Shown in pieces: positions 20,635 through 29,326 of a stretch of DNA of 47,198 bases (its first letter is position 1; each line of letters begins with the position of its first letter). Origin of the DNA: an uncultured Massilia sp. (lineage in GTDB: Bacteria > Pseudomonadota > Gammaproteobacteria > Burkholderiales > Burkholderiaceae). Under the pieces are notes generated by a model. It was not told the origin of the DNA. It made no database searches and was given only the letters and a program-made list of their open reading frames with translations. The translations under genes and the position numbers were made by a program. The stretch covers positions 1 through 47,198 of the forward strand of contig CAMLMV010000052.1 of NCBI GenBank assembly GCA_946481275.1, written 5' to 3'.

Positions 20635-23538
20635 ATGATGTCGGAAAAAGTTTTATCTCGGTCGGTACGACTGATGTTCGCCGGCGGCATGGCGCTCGGC
20701 GCGTCCGTCGCTCATGCACAGGACAATGCCCCAGCACCCACCGCGTCGATGCAGCGCATCGAAGTGACGGGTTCGCGCATTCCGTCGCTGAACACGGAAG
20801 GCGCCAGCCCCATCACCACCCTGAACGCCAAGGACATCAAGCGGGATGGCGTGCGCAATACCGAAGACTTGCTGAACAACCTGCCCATGGTGTTCGCGTC
20901 GCAGGGTGCAGCCATCTCGAACGGCGCCAGCGGTACCGCAACCGTCGACCTGCGCGGCATGGGTGCCCAGCGTACCCTGGTGTTGGTCAACGGCAAGCGC
21001 CTGCCGTCCGGCAGCGTGCTCAGCGTCGCAGCCGACCTGAACCAGATCCCGAGTGAACTGATCCGCCAAGTCGACATCCTGACCGGCGGCGCCGCCGCCA
21101 CGTATGGCTCGGGCGCCGTGTCGGGCGTCGTCAACTTCATCCTGAAGGACAACTACGAAGGCGTGGAGCTGCAGGCCAACATCTCCGGCGCCAACCATCA
21201 GCAGCACAATGACGAGATCCAGGGGGTCGTGAACCAGAAGGGTTTCCCGCTGCCGGGCAACCACGCGTTCGACGCCAAGAAGTACGACTTCAGCCTGCTG
21301 GCCGGCTCCAACTTCGCCGACAACAAGGGTAACGCGACATTCTTCCTGTCTCACCGTCACGCCGACGCCCTGCTGCAATCGCAGCGCGACTATTCGGCCT
21401 GCTCGCTGGGCGCGTCCGATCCGGGCTTCGCCTGCTCGGGTTCCGGCACGTCGATCGCCCGCGTCGGCGCGTACACCCCGGATGCGAACGGCAATCCGCG
21501 CAAGTACGTGTCGGCCACCGATGCCTACAACTTCGGTCCCCTGAACTTCTTCCAGCGTCCGTCGGACGAGTACAGCGTCAACTCGACGCTGCACTACGAC
21601 ATCAACGAGAACGCGCGCCTGTACAGCGAATTCAACTTCCACAACTACACGACCGACGCGCAGATCGCGCCGGGCGGCATCTTCTACGGCCAGCAGGCGA
21701 CGATTGCCTACGAGAACCCGCTGCTGAATTCGGCATGGCGCACGGCGCTCGGTCTGAACAAGCCGGGCGACACCGCCACCGTTTCCGTCGGCAAGCGCAA
21801 TACCGAAGGCGGCCCGCGCTCCAACAACATCACCGACTCGTCGTTCCGCGAAGTGCTGGGTGTGAAGGGCATGATCGGCGAATGGTCCTACGACGTGTTC
21901 GGCCAATTCGCGCGCGTCAACCACAGCGACCGTTCGACCGGCTATTTCTCCAACCGCCTGATCGCCAACGCGCTGGACGTCGTCGCGGATCCGACCACGG
22001 GCAAGGCCGTGTGCCGTTCCGTCGTCAATGGTTCCGACACCGCCTGCGTGCCGTACAACCTGTACAAGCAGGGCGGCATCACCCAGGCCGCCCTCGACTA
22101 CCTGAACGCCACCGGCTCGAACGGCGGCTTCACGCAGCAATCCGTGTTCGGCCTGAACATCGGCTCCGACCTGACCCGCTTCGGCCTGAAACTGCCGACC
22201 GCGGACAGCGGCGCCGGCGTGTCGTTCGGCTACGAACAGCGCGTCGAGAAACTGTCGTTCCAGCCCGACTACGAAAACCAGACCGGCGACCTGTCCGGCG
22301 CCGGCGGCGCCTCCCCGGCCGTCGCGGGTTCGTACAACGTGAAGGAGGCTTACGGCGAAATCAGGCTGCCGCTGCTGGACAACAAGCCTTTCGCGAAGCA
22401 CATGGACCTGGAGGCGAAGTATCGCCGTTCGAACTACAGCACGGACGCGAAGACCAATACGTTCGGCCTGGGCCTTAACTGGCAGCCGATCAACGAGGTG
22501 CGCATCCGTGGTTCGGCCCAGCGCGCCGTCCGTGCACCGAACATCTATGAACTGTACACGCCGCAAGCCGTCGTGCTGGCCGGTCCGAACGACGACCCGT
22601 GCGAGGGCGAGAACCCGAAAGCCACGCAGGCCCAGTGTGCCAACACGGGCGTGCCGGCCTCGCTGTACGGCAAGCTGACGGAAAATTCCACCAACCAGTA
22701 CAACGGCCGTACCGGCGGCAACCCGAACGTCAAGCCGGAAACCGCCAACACGTACACCGTGGGCATCGTGATCGACCCGATCAAGAACCTGACCATCACG
22801 CTGGACGCGTTCAAGCTGAAGATCAAGGATGCCATCCAGGCCGTCAACGCGCAGAGTGTGTTCACCCAGTGCCTGACCACGGGTAACCCGCTGTACTGCA
22901 ACATGATCCACCGCGACTCGCTGGGTTCCCTGTGGCTGACGCCGGGCGGTTACGTCGAGGCCGGCACGACGAACATCGGTTCGCAGGGCACCTCGGGCCT
23001 GGACATCGGCGCCAACTACCGCGCCCGCCTGCCGCAGAGCTACGGCAACCTGGACTTCACGCTGAACGGCACTTACCTGCACAGCTACACGGTGGAGAAC
23101 CTGCCGGGCACGGGCAGCTACGACTGCGCCGGACTGTATGGCCCGACCTGCGGCGTATCCGCCCCGGCCATGCCGAAATGGCGCCACAAGCTGCGCACGA
23201 CGTGGTCGAGCCCGTACAACTTCGACCTGTCGCTCACCTGGCGCTACATGGACCGCGTCAAGAACGACATGCTCGATTCGAACCCGCAGCTGGCCGGCGA
23301 GCTGGACACCCAGCGCGACGCCTACCTGGCTTCGCGCAGCTACTTCGACCTGAACGGCATGTACCGCTTCGGCCGCCATCTGGCCCTGAGCTTCGGCATC
23401 AACAACCTGCTGGACAAGGATCCGCCGGTTGCATCGTCGAGCTCGGTGACGGGTACCTACGGCAACGGCAACACGTTCCCGCAGGTGTACGATTCGTATG
23501 GCCGTTTCATCTACGCCAACGTGACCTACCGCTTCTGA
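20635..23538 (+). CDS. TonB-dependent receptor 2
   Basis: Outer-membrane transporter of 967 residues (966 if the second ATG is used; AAGGGA lies about 10 nt upstream). The signal peptide MMSEKVLSRSVRLMFAGG... is cleaved after AHA (about 28), followed by RIEVTGSRIP. The plug (about 45-165) contains VDLRGMGAQRTLVLVNGKRL and ILTGGAAATYGSGAVSGVVN, and the barrel ends in YANVTYRF. The TGGAAATYG version differs from the KDGASS(T/I)YG of the other four, so this receptor belongs to a separate subfamily. Four Cys pairs sit in predicted external loops. It is convergent with the hydroxylase gene, sharing a terminator. Substrate unknown. Confidence 0.93.
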   Translation: MMSEKVLSRSVRLMFAGGMALGASVAHAQDNAPAPTASMQRIEVTGSRIPSLNTEGASPITTLNAKDIKRDGVRNTEDLLNNLPMVFASQGAAISNGASGTATVDLRGMGAQRTLVLVNGKRLPSGSVLSVAADLNQIPSELIRQVDILTGGAAATYGSGAVSGVVNFILKDNYEGVELQANISGANHQQHNDEIQGVVNQKGFPLPGNHAFDAKKYDFSLLAGSNFADNKGNATFFLSHRHADALLQSQRDYSACSLGASDPGFACSGSGTSIARVGAYTPDANGNPRKYVSATDAYNFGPLNFFQRPSDEYSVNSTLHYDINENARLYSEFNFHNYTTDAQIAPGGIFYGQQATIAYENPLLNSAWRTALGLNKPGDTATVSVGKRNTEGGPRSNNITDSSFREVLGVKGMIGEWSYDVFGQFARVNHSDRSTGYFSNRLIANALDVVADPTTGKAVCRSVVNGSDTACVPYNLYKQGGITQAALDYLNATGSNGGFTQQSVFGLNIGSDLTRFGLKLPTADSGAGVSFGYEQRVEKLSFQPDYENQTGDLSGAGGASPAVAGSYNVKEAYGEIRLPLLDNKPFAKHMDLEAKYRRSNYSTDAKTNTFGLGLNWQPINEVRIRGSAQRAVRAPNIYELYTPQAVVLAGPNDDPCEGENPKATQAQCANTGVPASLYGKLTENSTNQYNGRTGGNPNVKPETANTYTVGIVIDPIKNLTITLDAFKLKIKDAIQAVNAQSVFTQCLTTGNPLYCNMIHRDSLGSLWLTPGGYVEAGTTNIGSQGTSGLDIGANYRARLPQSYGNLDFTLNGTYLHSYTVENLPGTGSYDCAGLYGPTCGVSAPAMPKWRHKLRTTWSSPYNFDLSLTWRYMDRVKNDMLDSNPQLAGELDTQRDAYLASRSYFDLNGMYRFGRHLALSFGINNLLDKDPPVASSSSVTGTYGNGNTFPQVYDSYGRFIYANVTYRF

Positions 23539-24961: not shown

Positions 24962-26023
24962 TCACGCGTCGTCGCGCAACCGGCGTGCGCGCACGCTGGC
25001 GGCGAGGTTTTCCAGCACGGCGATGCTCGTCTCCCAGTCGATGCAGCCGTCGGTGACGGACTGGCCGTACGTCAGTTCCTTGCCCGGCACGAGGTCCTGG
25101 CGGCCGCCGACGAGGTGCGACTCGACCATCACGCCAACGATGCGCGTATCGCCCGCCGCGATCTGGCTGCCGATGTCCGCGCACACGGGCACCTGGTTCT
25201 GCGGATTCTTGCTGCTGTTGGCGTGCGACGCGTCGATCATCAGGCGGCTCGCGAGGCCGTTGGCGGCGAGCTGCTTGCAGGCGTCCTCGACGCTGGCGGC
25301 GTCGTAATTCGGCGCCTTGCCGCCGCGCAGGATGATGTGGCAGTCCTCGTTGCCCGCGGTCGACACGATCGCCGAGTGGCCACCCTTCGTCACGGACAGG
25401 AAGTGGTGCGGCTGCGACGCGGCCTTGATCGCATCGGCCGCGATCTTGATGTTGCCGTCGGTGCCGTTCTTGAAGCCGACCGGGCACGACAGGCCGGACG
25501 CCAGCTCGCGGTGCACCTGCGACTCGGTCGTGCGGGCGCCGATCGCGCCCCAGCTGATCAGGTCGGCGATGTACTGCGGGCTGATCACGTCCAGGAACTC
25601 GGTGCCGGCCGGCAGGCCCAGTTCATTGATGTCGCGCAGCAGTTCGCGCGCCATGCGCAGGCCGTCGTTGATGCGGAAGCTGTTGTCCATGTACGGGTCG
25701 TTGATCATGCCCTTCCAGCCGACCGTCGTGCGCGGCTTCTCGAAGTACACGCGCATGATCACCTCCAGCTCGCCGGCAAAGCGGTGGCGCTGCTCGACGA
25801 GGCGGCGGGCGTATTCCATCGCGGCGTTCGGATCGTGGATCGAGCACGGGCCGATCACGACCATCAGGCGGTCGTCCTGGCCGTGCAGGATGCGATGCAG
25901 CGCCACGCGCGCCTGCGACGCGACCTGTTCCGCTTCCGGGGTCACCGGGAATTCGCGGATCAGGTGCGAGGGCGGCGTCAGTTCCTTCATTTCGCGGATG
26001 CGTAAGTCGTCGGTGCGAGGCAT
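24962..26023 (-). CDS. aroG: 3-deoxy-7-phosphoheptulonate synthase (class I DAHP synthase)
   Basis: Condenses phosphoenolpyruvate and erythrose 4-phosphate, the first step of the shikimate pathway to Phe, Tyr and Trp. The 353-residue protein follows E. coli AroG/AroF/AroH closely: VIGPCSIH (metal-binding Cys about 60), VYFEKPRTTVGWKG, ISPQYIADLISWGAIGARTT, GFKNGTDG and IDASHANSSKNP. The ISPQY and ASGLS segments that line the allosteric aromatic pocket in AroG are intact, so feedback inhibition is likely; which amino acid inhibits it cannot be read reliably. GGAG precedes the ATG. Expression is probably controlled by the leader-peptide attenuator just upstream. Confidence 0.97.
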   Translation of the reverse strand: MPRTDDLRIREMKELTPPSHLIREFPVTPEAEQVASQARVALHRILHGQDDRLMVVIGPCSIHDPNAAMEYARRLVEQRHRFAGELEVIMRVYFEKPRTTVGWKGMINDPYMDNSFRINDGLRMARELLRDINELGLPAGTEFLDVISPQYIADLISWGAIGARTTESQVHRELASGLSCPVGFKNGTDGNIKIAADAIKAASQPHHFLSVTKGGHSAIVSTAGNEDCHIILRGGKAPNYDAASVEDACKQLAANGLASRLMIDASHANSSKNPQNQVPVCADIGSQIAAGDTRIVGVMVESHLVGGRQDLVPGKELTYGQSVTDGCIDWETSIAVLENLAASVRARRLRDDA

Positions 26024-26063
26024 TGCGGTTCTCCGTTCTTGATCTGGTTAAATTCTGGGGCGT

Positions 26064-26095
26064 AAAAAAAAAGACCGCCAGCTCGGCGGTCTTTT
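26064..26095 (-). terminator. Attenuator terminator upstream of aroG
   Basis: On the minus strand AAAAGACCGCC (26085-26095) pairs with GGCGGTCTTTT (26069-26079) around a 5-nt loop, and the U-run spans 26064-26072. It lies 40 nt before the aroG start. Its 5' arm, ACCGCCG (26084-26090), is also exactly complementary to CGGCGGT at 26148-26154 near the end of the leader-peptide gene, giving a competing antiterminator pairing. Confidence 0.88.
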
Positions 26096-26140
26096 GGATT
26101 CTTGTGTCGGACTCTGTTCTGTTGCTGCGTGAACCTGCCG

Positions 26141-26209
26141 CTACTCCACCGCCGTTGGGCTGGAATGGCTAAACCAAAAATAAAAGGTAAAGAAGACGGC
26201 GTGGCGCAT
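26141..26209 (-). CDS. AroG leader peptide (aromatic-rich, 22 residues)
   Basis: A short gene, MRHAV followed by FFTFYFWF (residues 6-13) and a TAG stop; seven of these eight codons specify Phe, Tyr or Trp. That is the hallmark of a ribosome-stalling leader peptide. A good promoter lies just upstream and a terminator 46 nt downstream of the stop. Leader bases CCACGCCGT (26196-26204) can pair with ACGGCGGTGG (26146-26155, one bulge), giving a protector hairpin. ACGGCGGTGG overlaps the strand that can instead pair with the terminator's 5' arm. A ribosome stalled on the aromatic codons frees that strand for antitermination; one reaching the stop codon covers it. By analogy with the trp and pheA leaders, uncharged aromatic tRNA would raise aroG expression. 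Confidence 0.85.
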   Translation of the reverse strand: MRHAVFFTFYFWFSHSSPTAVE

Positions 26210-26234
26210 GGAGAGATTCCGAATTGGTCGATTG

Positions 26235-26264
26235 ACTATAACAACATTGCAGCGACGTTGGCAA
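26235..26264 (-). promoter_or_regulatory. Promoter of the aroG leader
   Basis: Minus strand: -35 TTGCCA (26259-26264), 18-nt spacer, -10 TATAGT (26235-26240). The predicted start, near 26228, is about 20 nt before the leader-peptide ATG at 26209. The opposite strand of this 252-bp gap must also hold the promoter of TBDR3, for which I see only a weak candidate (TTGGCA at 26258-26263). Confidence 0.7.
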
Positions 26265-26461
26265 GACTTTATTTGGCCTGTGATCTGTCGGTTACGGTTG
26301 CCTATACAGGCGATCGGTTGCATCAAGCCGACATCTTTTCCGCTGTGCCGGACACGCTTGAGAGATGTCAGTTGCCCCTTTATGCAGGATGCAAAAGTCG
26401 CAACGAGCCCCGGATTGATGCACACCGGGTCGACCATCCCTCATCGTATTGGAGTCTGGAC

Positions 26462-29326
26462 ATGACTGAAACCCCGATATCCCGGACGATCCGACGCCTG
26501 TTCGCGGGCGGGGGCGCCATCGGCTTCACGATCCTGGCACTGCCTGCCCTGGCCCAGGAAGTGGCGCCCAAGCCGGTCCCGCGCGTCGAGATCACCGGCT
26601 CGAACATCCGCCGCTCGGAGGCCGAAACGGCGTCCTCCGTCATCACCGTCAACCGCGCCGACATCGAGCGGTCCGGCAAGGCCACCGTGGCCGAGCTGCT
26701 GCAGACGCTGGCCGTCGACAACCAGGGGTCCGTGCCCACCACCTTCGGCAACGGTTTCGCCGCCGGCGCCTCGGGCATCTCGCTGCGCGGCCTGGGCGCG
26801 GCGTCCACGCTCGTGCTGATGAACGGCCGCCGCATGGCCCCGTACGGCCTCGCCGACGACGGCCAGAAGCAGTTCACGGACATGAACGTGATCCCGACGG
26901 ATGCCGTCGAGCGGGTCGAGATCCTCAAGGACGGCGCCTCCGCCATCTATGGTTCGGACGCCATCGCCGGCGTCGTCAACATCATCCTGCGCCGCGACTT
27001 CCAGGGCAACACGGTGCGCTTCCAGCGCGGCGCCAGCGACGACTGGGACGGCAAGCGCATGAACGTCGCCTTCACCAAGGGCGTCGGCAGCCTCGACGCC
27101 GACCGCTACAACGTCCTGTTCAGCATCGAGTACAAGAAGTTCGACGAGATCTGGTACCGCGACCGCGCGGACCGCGAGTGGATCGGCCGCAACGACCTGC
27201 GCCGGTGGGGCTATTCGGCCGACCAGGCGCTCGGCGGTACCGGCGCCATCCTGCCCGGCACCGGCACGGCCGGCAACGCCATCAACGGCAACGTGCGCAA
27301 TCCGGCCGACCCGACCAATTACTACAACCGCGGCAACCTGGCCGGCCCCGGCTTCACCCGCACGTTTCCCGGCGCGGCCTGCTCCAACTTCACCAGCCAC
27401 CCGCAGGGCGATCCCGGCGGCGGCTGCCTGATCGACGCCTCGCTGATGTACAACCAGATCGAGCCGAAGCAGGAAAACCTGAGTTTCTTCCTGCGCGGCA
27501 CACTGCAGCTGAACCCGTCGACCCAGCTGTACAGCGAATTCAACTGGTACACGAGCCAGACGGATTCATCGACGACGCCCTCTTCCGTCAGCGCGTCCGT
27601 CGGCTTCCCGGGCGGGCCCGTCAACAACGCCGTCGTCCAGCTCGGCGCCACGCATCCGGACAACCCGTATTTCGGCACGGCCGCGCGCGTGCGCTACCTG
27701 GCGGCCGACGTCGGCCCGCGCGTCTCGAACATCGACTCGAACTTCCTGCGCTGGCTGGGCGGCGCCAAGGGCACGAACTATGGCTGGGACTGGGACTCGG
27801 GCCTGCTGTTCTCGCACAACCACGTCAACAACACGCAGAACGGCTTCCTGCAGCGCGACGTCGCCTTCGCCCTGCTCGATCCGTCCGTCGCCAACGTGAC
27901 GGCGGCGACGCTGCACAGTCCGGCCTATGCCGCGCTGCCGCCGGGCACCTTCTGGCGCCTTGCCGAGAACAGGGGGCTCAATTCGCCGGCGCTGTATGCC
28001 GCCCTGTCGCCGACCATCGGCAACGCGGCCAACACCAAGGTCGCCCAGGTCGACTTCAAGGCCACGCGCGAGTTCGGCGGCATCCCCTACCTGGCCGGCA
28101 ACCTGGGACTGGCGCTGGGCACCGAGTTCCGTCACGAGATGACCGAACTGCGGCCCACCACGGGCACCGAGCGGGGCAATGTCATCGGCCTGGGCTATTC
28201 CGCGTATTCCGGCGCCCGCAACGTGTTCGCGCTGTACGGCGAAGGCCTCGCGCCGCTGCCGTTCAACGTGGAAGCGTCGGCCGCACTGCGCTACGACCAC
28301 TTCACCGACGTCGGCAGTTCGTATACGCCGAAGTTCGGCCTGAAGTGGACACCGGTGCGGGAATTCGCGCTGCGCGGTACGTTTGCGCGGGGCTTTCGCG
28401 CGCCGAGTCCGGCCGAGAACGGCGTCGGGGGCCTGGCCGCCTTCTCCACCGCGGCCGACCCCGTGCGCTGCGCGCTGGGCGTGACGAGCGCCTGCAACCC
28501 GGCGTCGGTGGCGCTGGTCACGTCGCCGAACCCGAACCTGTCGCCGGAACGGTCGCGCAGCTACACGCTGGGCATCATCTGGGACCCGTTGCCGCGCACG
28601 AGCATCTCCGTGGACTACTGGAAGATCAAGCGCAAGAACGAGATCAACCAGGAACAGGTGGACGCCGCCATCGCCGCGGGCCACGTGGCGCGCGACCCCG
28701 GCAGCGTGAGCGGCATCCCGGGCGACCCGGGCCAGATCACGGCCGTGCTGACCCGCTACGTCAACTCCGCCCAGAGCAAGGTGCGCGGCCTCGACGTGGA
28801 CGCGCGCTACAACCACCGCCTGCCGGACACCTGGGGCAATGCCACGTTCGACGTGAAGTACACACACATCTTCGAATGGCTGCGCACCGAACAGGACGGC
28901 ACGTCGCGCGAATTCGCGGGCACGCACGGCAACTGCGACGTGACGAACTGCACGGGCACGCCGGCCGACCGTGTCAACATGCGCTTCGGCTGGGACCGCA
29001 ACAACCTGCGCGTGTCGGCCAACGTGAACTACCGCGGCGTGCTGGAAAACCGCTTCTTCCGGGGCGACCCGAGCGGTTGCGCCGTGACGTTCGCTAACGG
29101 CGCCGACGCCCCGAACGGCTGCGAACTGGCGTCGTTCACGACGGTCGACCTGGTGATCCGCTGGAAGCCGCAGCAGCGCTGGGAAGTGTTCGGCTCGGTG
29201 CAGAACCTGTTCGACAAGATCGCGCCGCTCGACCCGCTGACCTATGGCGCGCAGGCCTACAACCCGCTCGATTACGAGGGGGCGCGCGGACGCTTCTTCA
29301 CGCTGGGGGCGCGCTATTCCTTCTGA
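26462..29326 (+). CDS. TonB-dependent receptor 3
   Basis: Outer-membrane transporter of 954 residues. The signal peptide, with SRTIRRLFAGGGAIG, is cleaved after ALA (about 31); then come RVEITGSNIRR, a plug (about 50-170) with ISLRGLGAASTLVLMNGRRM and ILKDGASAIYGSDAIAGVVN, and a barrel ending in LGARYSF. It is clearly a paralogue of TBDR1: both have DDGQK(S/Q)FTD in the plug, AGTHGNCD in a late loop and NLFDKIAPLDPLTYG near the end. The ATG at 26462 is preceded by GGAG at a 7-nt spacing; a much longer in-frame extension to 26102 would run through the aroG leader region and is rejected. Substrate unknown. Confidence 0.92.
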   Translation: MTETPISRTIRRLFAGGGAIGFTILALPALAQEVAPKPVPRVEITGSNIRRSEAETASSVITVNRADIERSGKATVAELLQTLAVDNQGSVPTTFGNGFAAGASGISLRGLGAASTLVLMNGRRMAPYGLADDGQKQFTDMNVIPTDAVERVEILKDGASAIYGSDAIAGVVNIILRRDFQGNTVRFQRGASDDWDGKRMNVAFTKGVGSLDADRYNVLFSIEYKKFDEIWYRDRADREWIGRNDLRRWGYSADQALGGTGAILPGTGTAGNAINGNVRNPADPTNYYNRGNLAGPGFTRTFPGAACSNFTSHPQGDPGGGCLIDASLMYNQIEPKQENLSFFLRGTLQLNPSTQLYSEFNWYTSQTDSSTTPSSVSASVGFPGGPVNNAVVQLGATHPDNPYFGTAARVRYLAADVGPRVSNIDSNFLRWLGGAKGTNYGWDWDSGLLFSHNHVNNTQNGFLQRDVAFALLDPSVANVTAATLHSPAYAALPPGTFWRLAENRGLNSPALYAALSPTIGNAANTKVAQVDFKATREFGGIPYLAGNLGLALGTEFRHEMTELRPTTGTERGNVIGLGYSAYSGARNVFALYGEGLAPLPFNVEASAALRYDHFTDVGSSYTPKFGLKWTPVREFALRGTFARGFRAPSPAENGVGGLAAFSTAADPVRCALGVTSACNPASVALVTSPNPNLSPERSRSYTLGIIWDPLPRTSISVDYWKIKRKNEINQEQVDAAIAAGHVARDPGSVSGIPGDPGQITAVLTRYVNSAQSKVRGLDVDARYNHRLPDTWGNATFDVKYTHIFEWLRTEQDGTSREFAGTHGNCDVTNCTGTPADRVNMRFGWDRNNLRVSANVNYRGVLENRFFRGDPSGCAVTFANGADAPNGCELASFTTVDLVIRWKPQQRWEVFGSVQNLFDKIAPLDPLTYGAQAYNPLDYEGARGRFFTLGARYSF

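Follow-up and report, generated by a model that had tools for sequence, protein, structure and literature searches.

A putative ribosome-mediated transcription attenuator with aromatic control codons upstream of the DAHP synthase gene aroG

Comparison of related loci together with RNA folding points to a ribosome-mediated transcription attenuator ahead of aroG in the window (the whole stretch of DNA analysed, 47,198 nucleotides), a reading to which we assign a probability of roughly 0.92. The initial annotation had seen attenuation logic of the trp/pheA type before this gene, and the reading is sustained by the conservation of leader, antiterminator and terminator and by a predicted fold that depends on where the ribosome stands. 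Sequence comparison and folding back the leader, the selection of its aromatic codons, the terminator, the complementarity of the antiterminator arms and the ribosome-dependent fold; from these we infer that the leader is translated, that transcription terminates in the cell and that the element responds to each of the amino acids. On these models aroG is probably turned up when aromatic amino acids are short. The features of the locus, all on the minus strand, are as follows.

26235..26264, minus: sigma-70-like promoter TTGCCA-18-TATAGT with TG before the -10 (sequence, promoter scan)
About 26228, minus: probable transcription start
26141..26209, minus: leader peptide gene MRHAVFFTFYFWFSHSSPTAVE, 22 codons plus stop, with ATG at 26209 and stop TAG at 26143-26141 (sequence; related leaders elsewhere)
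26171..26194, minus: control codons 6-13, F F T F Y F W F (sequence; folding of the Massilia sp. Root133 locus, L001)
26182..26188, minus: segment 1, outer 5' arm of the proposed protector/pause hairpin (consensus folds, pair counts)
26157..26169, minus: core 5' arm of the proposed protector hairpin, GC.AUUCCA.CCC (consensus folds, pair counts)
26140..26153, minus: core 3' arm of the proposed protector hairpin, segment 2 region including the leader stop codon
26133..26139, minus: outer 3' arm of the proposed protector hairpin, past the leader stop codon, partner 26188-26182
26148..26154, minus: segment 2, antiterminator 5' arm CGGCGGU
26084..26090, minus: segment 3, antiterminator 3' arm ACCGCCG
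26064..26095, minus: intrinsic terminator, stem 26095-26085 with 26079-26069, T tract to 26064
24962..26023, minus: aroG, AroG-type DAHP synthase, by sequence Phe-sensitive, 353 aa (NF006723 over cut-off)

The order on the minus strand is thus promoter, 22-codon leader, terminator and aroG; forty bases separate the start codon of aroG from the T tract. A promoter scan of 25980-26400 returned a single sigma-70-like site with 10 of 12 matches (mean for shuffles, 0.3), and this is the good promoter placed at 26235-26264 by the initial annotation; L001 and L010 likewise have TATAGT, 25 nt ahead of their leader start. The 22-codon leader with its FFTFYFWF run was also read correctly, the run being codons 6-13, and its ribosome binding site is weak as judged by eye. 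The terminator stem described earlier is present together with its nine T (26072-26064), but four of these lie inside the stem as drawn. The upstream neighbour of the locus is a divergent gene for a TonB-dependent receptor and the downstream neighbour, on the same strand as aroG, encodes an Asp/Asn beta-hydroxylase. TonB-dependent receptor genes flank this pair on both sides, at 20635-23538 (plus) and 26462-29326 (plus), the second being divergent from the attenuator.

The arrangement is widespread among relatives. We screened 228 aroG loci with a script that seeks, upstream of the gene, an aromatic-rich short frame followed by a terminator, and both were found in 174. They are present in 77 of 80 loci of named genomes (misses L029, L048 and L056), in 29 of 30 family loci (miss L083) and in 58 of 60 family regions, hand-picked to span many genera (misses L198 and L225). 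The order set gave 9 of 28 loci and the class set 1 of 29 (L140); loci of these two sets were best matches, so the sample is not even. Some genomes are shared between collections, so that the locus sets overlap, and the upstream stretches of L195 and L255 are short (251 and 294 bases). Start codons of the leaders are ATG in 172 of 174 and GTG in 2, with a script that prefers ATG. Slightly looser script settings, applied to further regions of the order, found the leader in 20 of 40: 5/6 in f4, 6/6 in f9, 2/2 in f22, 5/5 in f31, 1/3 in f19 and 1/6 in f29, and none in f17 (0/4), f20 (0/4), f46 (0/2), f10 (0/1) or f38 (0/1). With f1 and f12 added, eight families of the order carry it. The peptide of one f31 leader (L264) is identical to that of a named Burkholderia (L076). 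The single aroG paralogue examined (L111) has no leader (0/1), and the idea of a second DAHP synthase under the same control was rejected on that ground. The region upstream of aroG in relatives, proposed earlier as the place to look, retains the frame, the aromatic codons, the terminator and the antiterminator.

Two further comparisons bear on this distribution. Of 97 genomes, 33 contain a strict core pattern, always as a single site, and its backward-read control gave no sites in any of the 97; the pattern misses many leaders by design and is therefore uninformative on the other 64 genomes. The site lies 91-202 bases before the listed aroG in 29 of the 33, the remaining 4 genomes having no listed aroG position. 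On an AroG tree of 137 rows, with L048 and L083 scored as leader-bearing, leader presence requires 7 changes, at least 4 of them forced by well-supported branches, against a shuffled mean of 39.6. This distribution fits an early gain followed by later losses, a fit that stops short of proof of a single origin.

Several loci depart from the common arrangement. L048 and L083 keep the aromatic run and segment 2 and differ in the downstream frame; the frame after the aromatic run differs in L006, L016, L055, L083, L090 and L222, with segment 2-like bases kept, as if the RNA and not the C-terminus of the peptide had been selected. L056 (Undibacterium sp. TS12) and L225 (G188) have no leader and hold copies, seen by eye, of a CTCTGTGTCTC..CTCTGTGGTGA repeat that looks like a mobile repeat unit. 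L112, L242 and L244 also have no leader, and their aroG stands behind the end of a frame that we take to be TldD-like from the likeness of its C-terminus; loss of the attenuator may accompany this gene order. In L120, L122 and L123 of f12 (TAGAGT, TACAGT and TACAGT, by script) and, as judged by eye, in L125 (TAAATT) and L131 (TACTAT), the leader ATG comes 6 bases after the end of a -10-like hexamer. These lineages may therefore translate the leader from a leaderless transcript.

Folding of the whole leader RNA with its terminator gives a z-score of -3.04 (1 of 200 shuffles as good), and without the terminator only -1.76 (12 of 200). The weight rests on the conserved frame, the aromatic codons and the stems. 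The terminator is paired in 96.3% of cells, with slid controls at or below 74.8%. The antiterminator postulated at the outset, 26148-26154 with 26084-26090, holds up well: the two arms are fully complementary in the window, and the stem is paired in 88.0% of cells (slid controls at or below 59.3%), its six-pair core nearly always. That paired percentage is reached by 57 of 500 shuffles, and the near invariance of the core in the alignment A1 (62 sequences) leaves almost no covariation, so the evidence is one of conservation. Among 29 hand-chosen leaders, segments 2 and 3 change across families yet remain complementary.

The protector hairpin needs a different placing. The stem drawn initially (26196-26204 with 26146-26155) has 9 pairs and one bulge on paper; it is absent from the minimum-energy fold of the leader RNA, and its pairing in 62.2% of cells is close to that of slid controls (up to 59.7%), for which reason it was rejected as a conserved structure. 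RNAalifold, run on the leader cut before segment 3 for two groups apart (30 and 32 sequences), gives instead a core that pairs GC.AUUCCA.CCC with GG.C.UGGAGU.GC; the Massilia-Janthinobacterium-Duganella group adds an outer helix of ACC[U/G]GCU with GGC[A/C]GGU beyond the stop codon. On A1 this hairpin is paired in 82.3% of cells (core 91.2%, outer helix 68.2%) against 39.7-55.9% for slid controls, although structures derived, as this one was, from the same sequences tend to beat such controls. The full-length consensus fold of all A1 shows the terminator and not the proposed protector. The best covarying pair of the outer helix is UA in 15 of 30 and GC in 11 of 30; it amounts to about 3 changes on the AroG tree (27 rows), a number too small to bear a test, and is supportive only, and its use as strong proof of the protector was withdrawn. 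The window itself has one U-C mismatch in this helix, and in its lineage a Phe codon takes the place of the Cys or Gly seen in several relatives. On these models, the better candidate for the protector is a hairpin in which the aromatic and following codons pair with bases near the stop codon and past it.

The dependence of the fold on the ribosome was modelled by placing a ribosome at each codon, leaving out the ribosome and everything upstream of it, and folding the RNA up to the second arm of the terminator. The first free base after a ribosome is 13 after the first base of the A-site codon. The predicted probability of the antiterminator with the ribosome on the aromatic codons averages 0.931 in 89 Oxalobacteraceae-type leaders, 0.954 in 17 Burkholderia-type leaders and 0.734 in 9 others, and falls to 0.028, 0.041 and 0.040 with the ribosome on the stop codon; the former value exceeds the latter in every leader (89/89, 17/17 and 9/9). 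In L001, whose leader peptide is that of the window, the probability is at least 0.67 over codons 2-20 and drops to 0.18 at codon 21, which places all seven aromatic codons inside the control stretch. Shuffling segment 2, with the ribosome at a mid-run codon, lowers the probability from 0.952 to 0.491 in 45 leaders (every second Oxalobacteraceae-type one), from 0.999 to 0.597 in 17 and from 0.847 to 0.569 in 9, shuffled segments retaining about half the pairing with segment 3. The real segment beats all 15 shuffles in 29/45, 14/17 and 4/9 leaders. In these predicted folds, stalling at the control codons frees segment 2 and a ribosome at the stop codon masks it.

Without a ribosome the antiterminator probabilities are 0.183 in the Oxalobacteraceae-type, 0.694 in the Burkholderia-type and 0.414 in the other leaders; with the RNA cut before segment 4, the last two groups favour the antiterminator or are near balance. 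In the Burkholderia-type group a ribosome at the stop codon may be what permits termination. The full-length consensus fold of these leaders (L049-L080, alignment A2) pairs the start-codon stretch AUGUCCGCC with segment 2 (GGCGGAU), a pairing that could hide the start codon of the leader; this hairpin loses to the antiterminator when the RNA is cut before segment 4.

The mechanism that we propose would run as follows. RNA polymerase would start near 26228, with a ribosome following on the leader. If charged tRNAs for Phe and Tyr (here also Trp) are plentiful, the ribosome would run to the stop codon and cover segment 2, segments 3 and 4 would pair, and transcription would end about 165 nt in. 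If one of these tRNAs is short, the ribosome would stall within codons 6-13 and block the protector hairpin; segment 2, left free, would pair with segment 3 and the polymerase would read into aroG.

Which amino acids are sensed is suggested by the aromatic block of 115 representative leaders. Mean numbers of Phe, Tyr and Trp per leader are 4.71, 2.38 and 0.19 in the Oxalobacteraceae-type (n=89), 4.06, 2.65 and 1.06 in the Burkholderia-type (n=17) and 4.67, 2.11 and 0.78 in the others (n=9), and all three residues occur together in 15/89, 16/17 and 5/9 leaders. Phe plus Tyr is thus the common theme and Trp varies by lineage, that of the window having it; by these counts the sensor appears to be mainly Phe plus Tyr. 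The claim that Phe, Tyr and Trp are read together therefore suits the window and the Burkholderia-type leaders (Trp in 16/17), but not the Oxalobacteraceae-type, where Trp occurs in 16/89 and its role as a general part of the sensor is unsupported. A narrower alternative is that Phe alone is sensed, as in pheL, with Tyr and Trp codons as tolerated fillers or parts of hairpins. Phe is the commonest residue, Trp is rare outside the Burkholderia-type leaders, His sometimes occupies Tyr positions, AroG has the Phe-type residue, and the Tyr codon TAC belongs to the hairpin in one leader group, all of which fits Phe alone. Yet the aromatic block of the 89 Oxalobacteraceae-type leaders holds 200 Tyr against 27 His codons, the last Tyr/Trp codon of the Massilia group lies in a stretch unpaired in the consensus fold, and Trp is nearly constant in the Burkholderia-type; sensing of Phe alone is, in our view, possible but unlikely.

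The other alternatives fare worse. The terminator could be an ordinary one or end a stand-alone small RNA, with aroG served by its own downstream promoter: the forty bases between T tract and ATG give some room for this, and a short transcript could act in trans, with the Sinorhizobium trp leader peptide as a reported precedent. We hold this to be very improbable: the scan of 25980-26400 lists no promoter-like site other than the one upstream of the leader, the leader is conserved along with its terminator, and the upstream neighbour is divergent, so that no upstream gene needs this terminator. That the leader peptide is itself the functional product agrees with its good conservation within groups and is scarcely credible otherwise, because the frame of the C-terminal half differs in several relatives (L006, L083, L090 and L222) with the bases of segment 2 kept, and conservation extends past the leader stop codon. 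Equally hard to credit is that the U-rich run serves the RNA, as an unstructured or purine-pairing tract, and not amino acids: part of the run does pair around or beyond the stop codon in consensus folds, but the two-T codons of the 115 blocks are TTC or TAT in 233 cases and others (ATT, GTT) in 2, despite seven non-aromatic codons among the nine single-base neighbours of TTT, and TGG and TAC are used though poorer in U. The codon preference led us to reject a U-rich tract free of amino acid selection; it indicates that the codons are retained for being aromatic, not for U-richness.

The enzyme downstream of the attenuator is by sequence of the Phe-sensitive type. The window AroG is 100% identical over its full length to that of Massilia sp. 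Root133 (L001) and scores 589 bits against NCBIfam NF006723 (cut-off 568). The position of E. coli Ser211, where Ser marks DAHP synthases inhibited by Phe, holds Ser in 115 of the 116 leader-bearing loci whose protein was available (Ala in L140); Ser is also usual there in loci without leader, and the 51% paralogue L111 has Gly. A search of 97 family genomes for type II DAHP synthase gave no match, the control being positive in 2 of 14, and some genomes with the leader (G023, G027 and G029) have a single type I match at E <=1e-40, so AroG is the only DAHP synthase found in them. No TrpR match exceeded the cut-off in 60 family genomes, 3 weak matches falling short of it; the E. coli and Bacillus subtilis controls were positive. 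The TyrR-type DNA-binding domain was found in 4 of the 60, the E. coli control being positive; the four frames measure 520-554 aa (G059:C77, G033:C13, G026:C94 and G022:C40).

A wider interpretation, on which we are evenly divided, is that a sensor with several inputs (Phe and Tyr, joined by Trp in some lineages) switches on the first enzyme of the shikimate pathway when any of them is in short supply. It would complement a DAHP synthase that, judged by its residues, is inhibited by Phe only and that is the sole one found in some genomes; across much of Burkholderiales attenuation would then replace TyrR, TrpR and the E. coli scheme of three isozymes. Found in at least eight families, the attenuator offers a concrete and testable account of control over the first step of aromatic synthesis in Burkholderiales, a matter untold in the literature we found; the family sampled mostly lacks the E. 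coli regulators. It also gives a handle on aromatic production in harmless relatives.

Database searches left an annotation gap at this locus. No Rfam family, T-box included, reached gathering in the 47,198-base window, and the four leader peptides tried had no match in Pfam or NCBIfam. Membership in Phe_leader (RF01859, 22.2 of 55 bits) and Trp_leader (RF00513, 20.4 of 41 bits) was rejected, both scores being below gathering. We found no description of a leader before betaproteobacterial aroG in the open-access literature, of which our coverage is incomplete; the 82 short 5' UTRs of Burkholderia cenocepacia (PMC5688073, table S3) could include it. The mechanism is known; its widespread target and sensor mix were not found described in that literature, and the breadth of the sensor is one that we infer.

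Attenuation has been brought up for DAHP synthase genes before. The uORFC-13-1 motif before aroF (DAHP synthase) of Acholeplasma is a uORF with at least one Phe codon plus a terminator, and its 24 representatives are reported solely from Acholeplasma and from environmental sequences whose source is unknown (PMC8632094); by description, the one basis of this comparison, it resembles the element before aroG. Attenuation of E. coli aroF-tyrA was proposed by Camakaris 1980 (as cited in PMC8632094 and PMC2659441), RNA motifs were predicted before Shewanella aroF and aroH (PMC2659441), and attenuators were predicted for Vibrio DAHPS-tyrA operons (PMC1173090, table 7). These cases are alike in proposing or predicting attenuation of DAHP synthase genes and unlike in concerning Gammaproteobacteria and Tyr- or Trp-type enzymes, as hypothesis or prediction. 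TrpR and TyrR regulons are described for gammaproteobacterial lineages (PMC5343134). Such control also makes expression of DAHP synthase genes follow aromatic supply, but it acts at initiation, and the family genomes here have TrpR over cut-off in 0/60 and a TyrR-type domain in 4/60.

The nearest likenesses are in mechanism. The E. coli pheA and trp leaders share the codons for the product amino acid, the 1:2/2:3/3:4 logic as proposed here and the intrinsic terminator, and differ from the element described here in the gene controlled, in sequence and in that its aromatic codons are mixed. The enterobacterial ilvGMEDA and thr leaders hold codons for several amino acids in one leader. These operons are named as attenuated in PMC1183508. 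They resemble the proposed aroG element in using a single leader for several members of a pathway family; that family is branched-chain or threonine in the enterobacterial leaders and aromatic here, and the aroG attenuator would provide a comparative case of multi-amino-acid attenuation outside enterobacteria.
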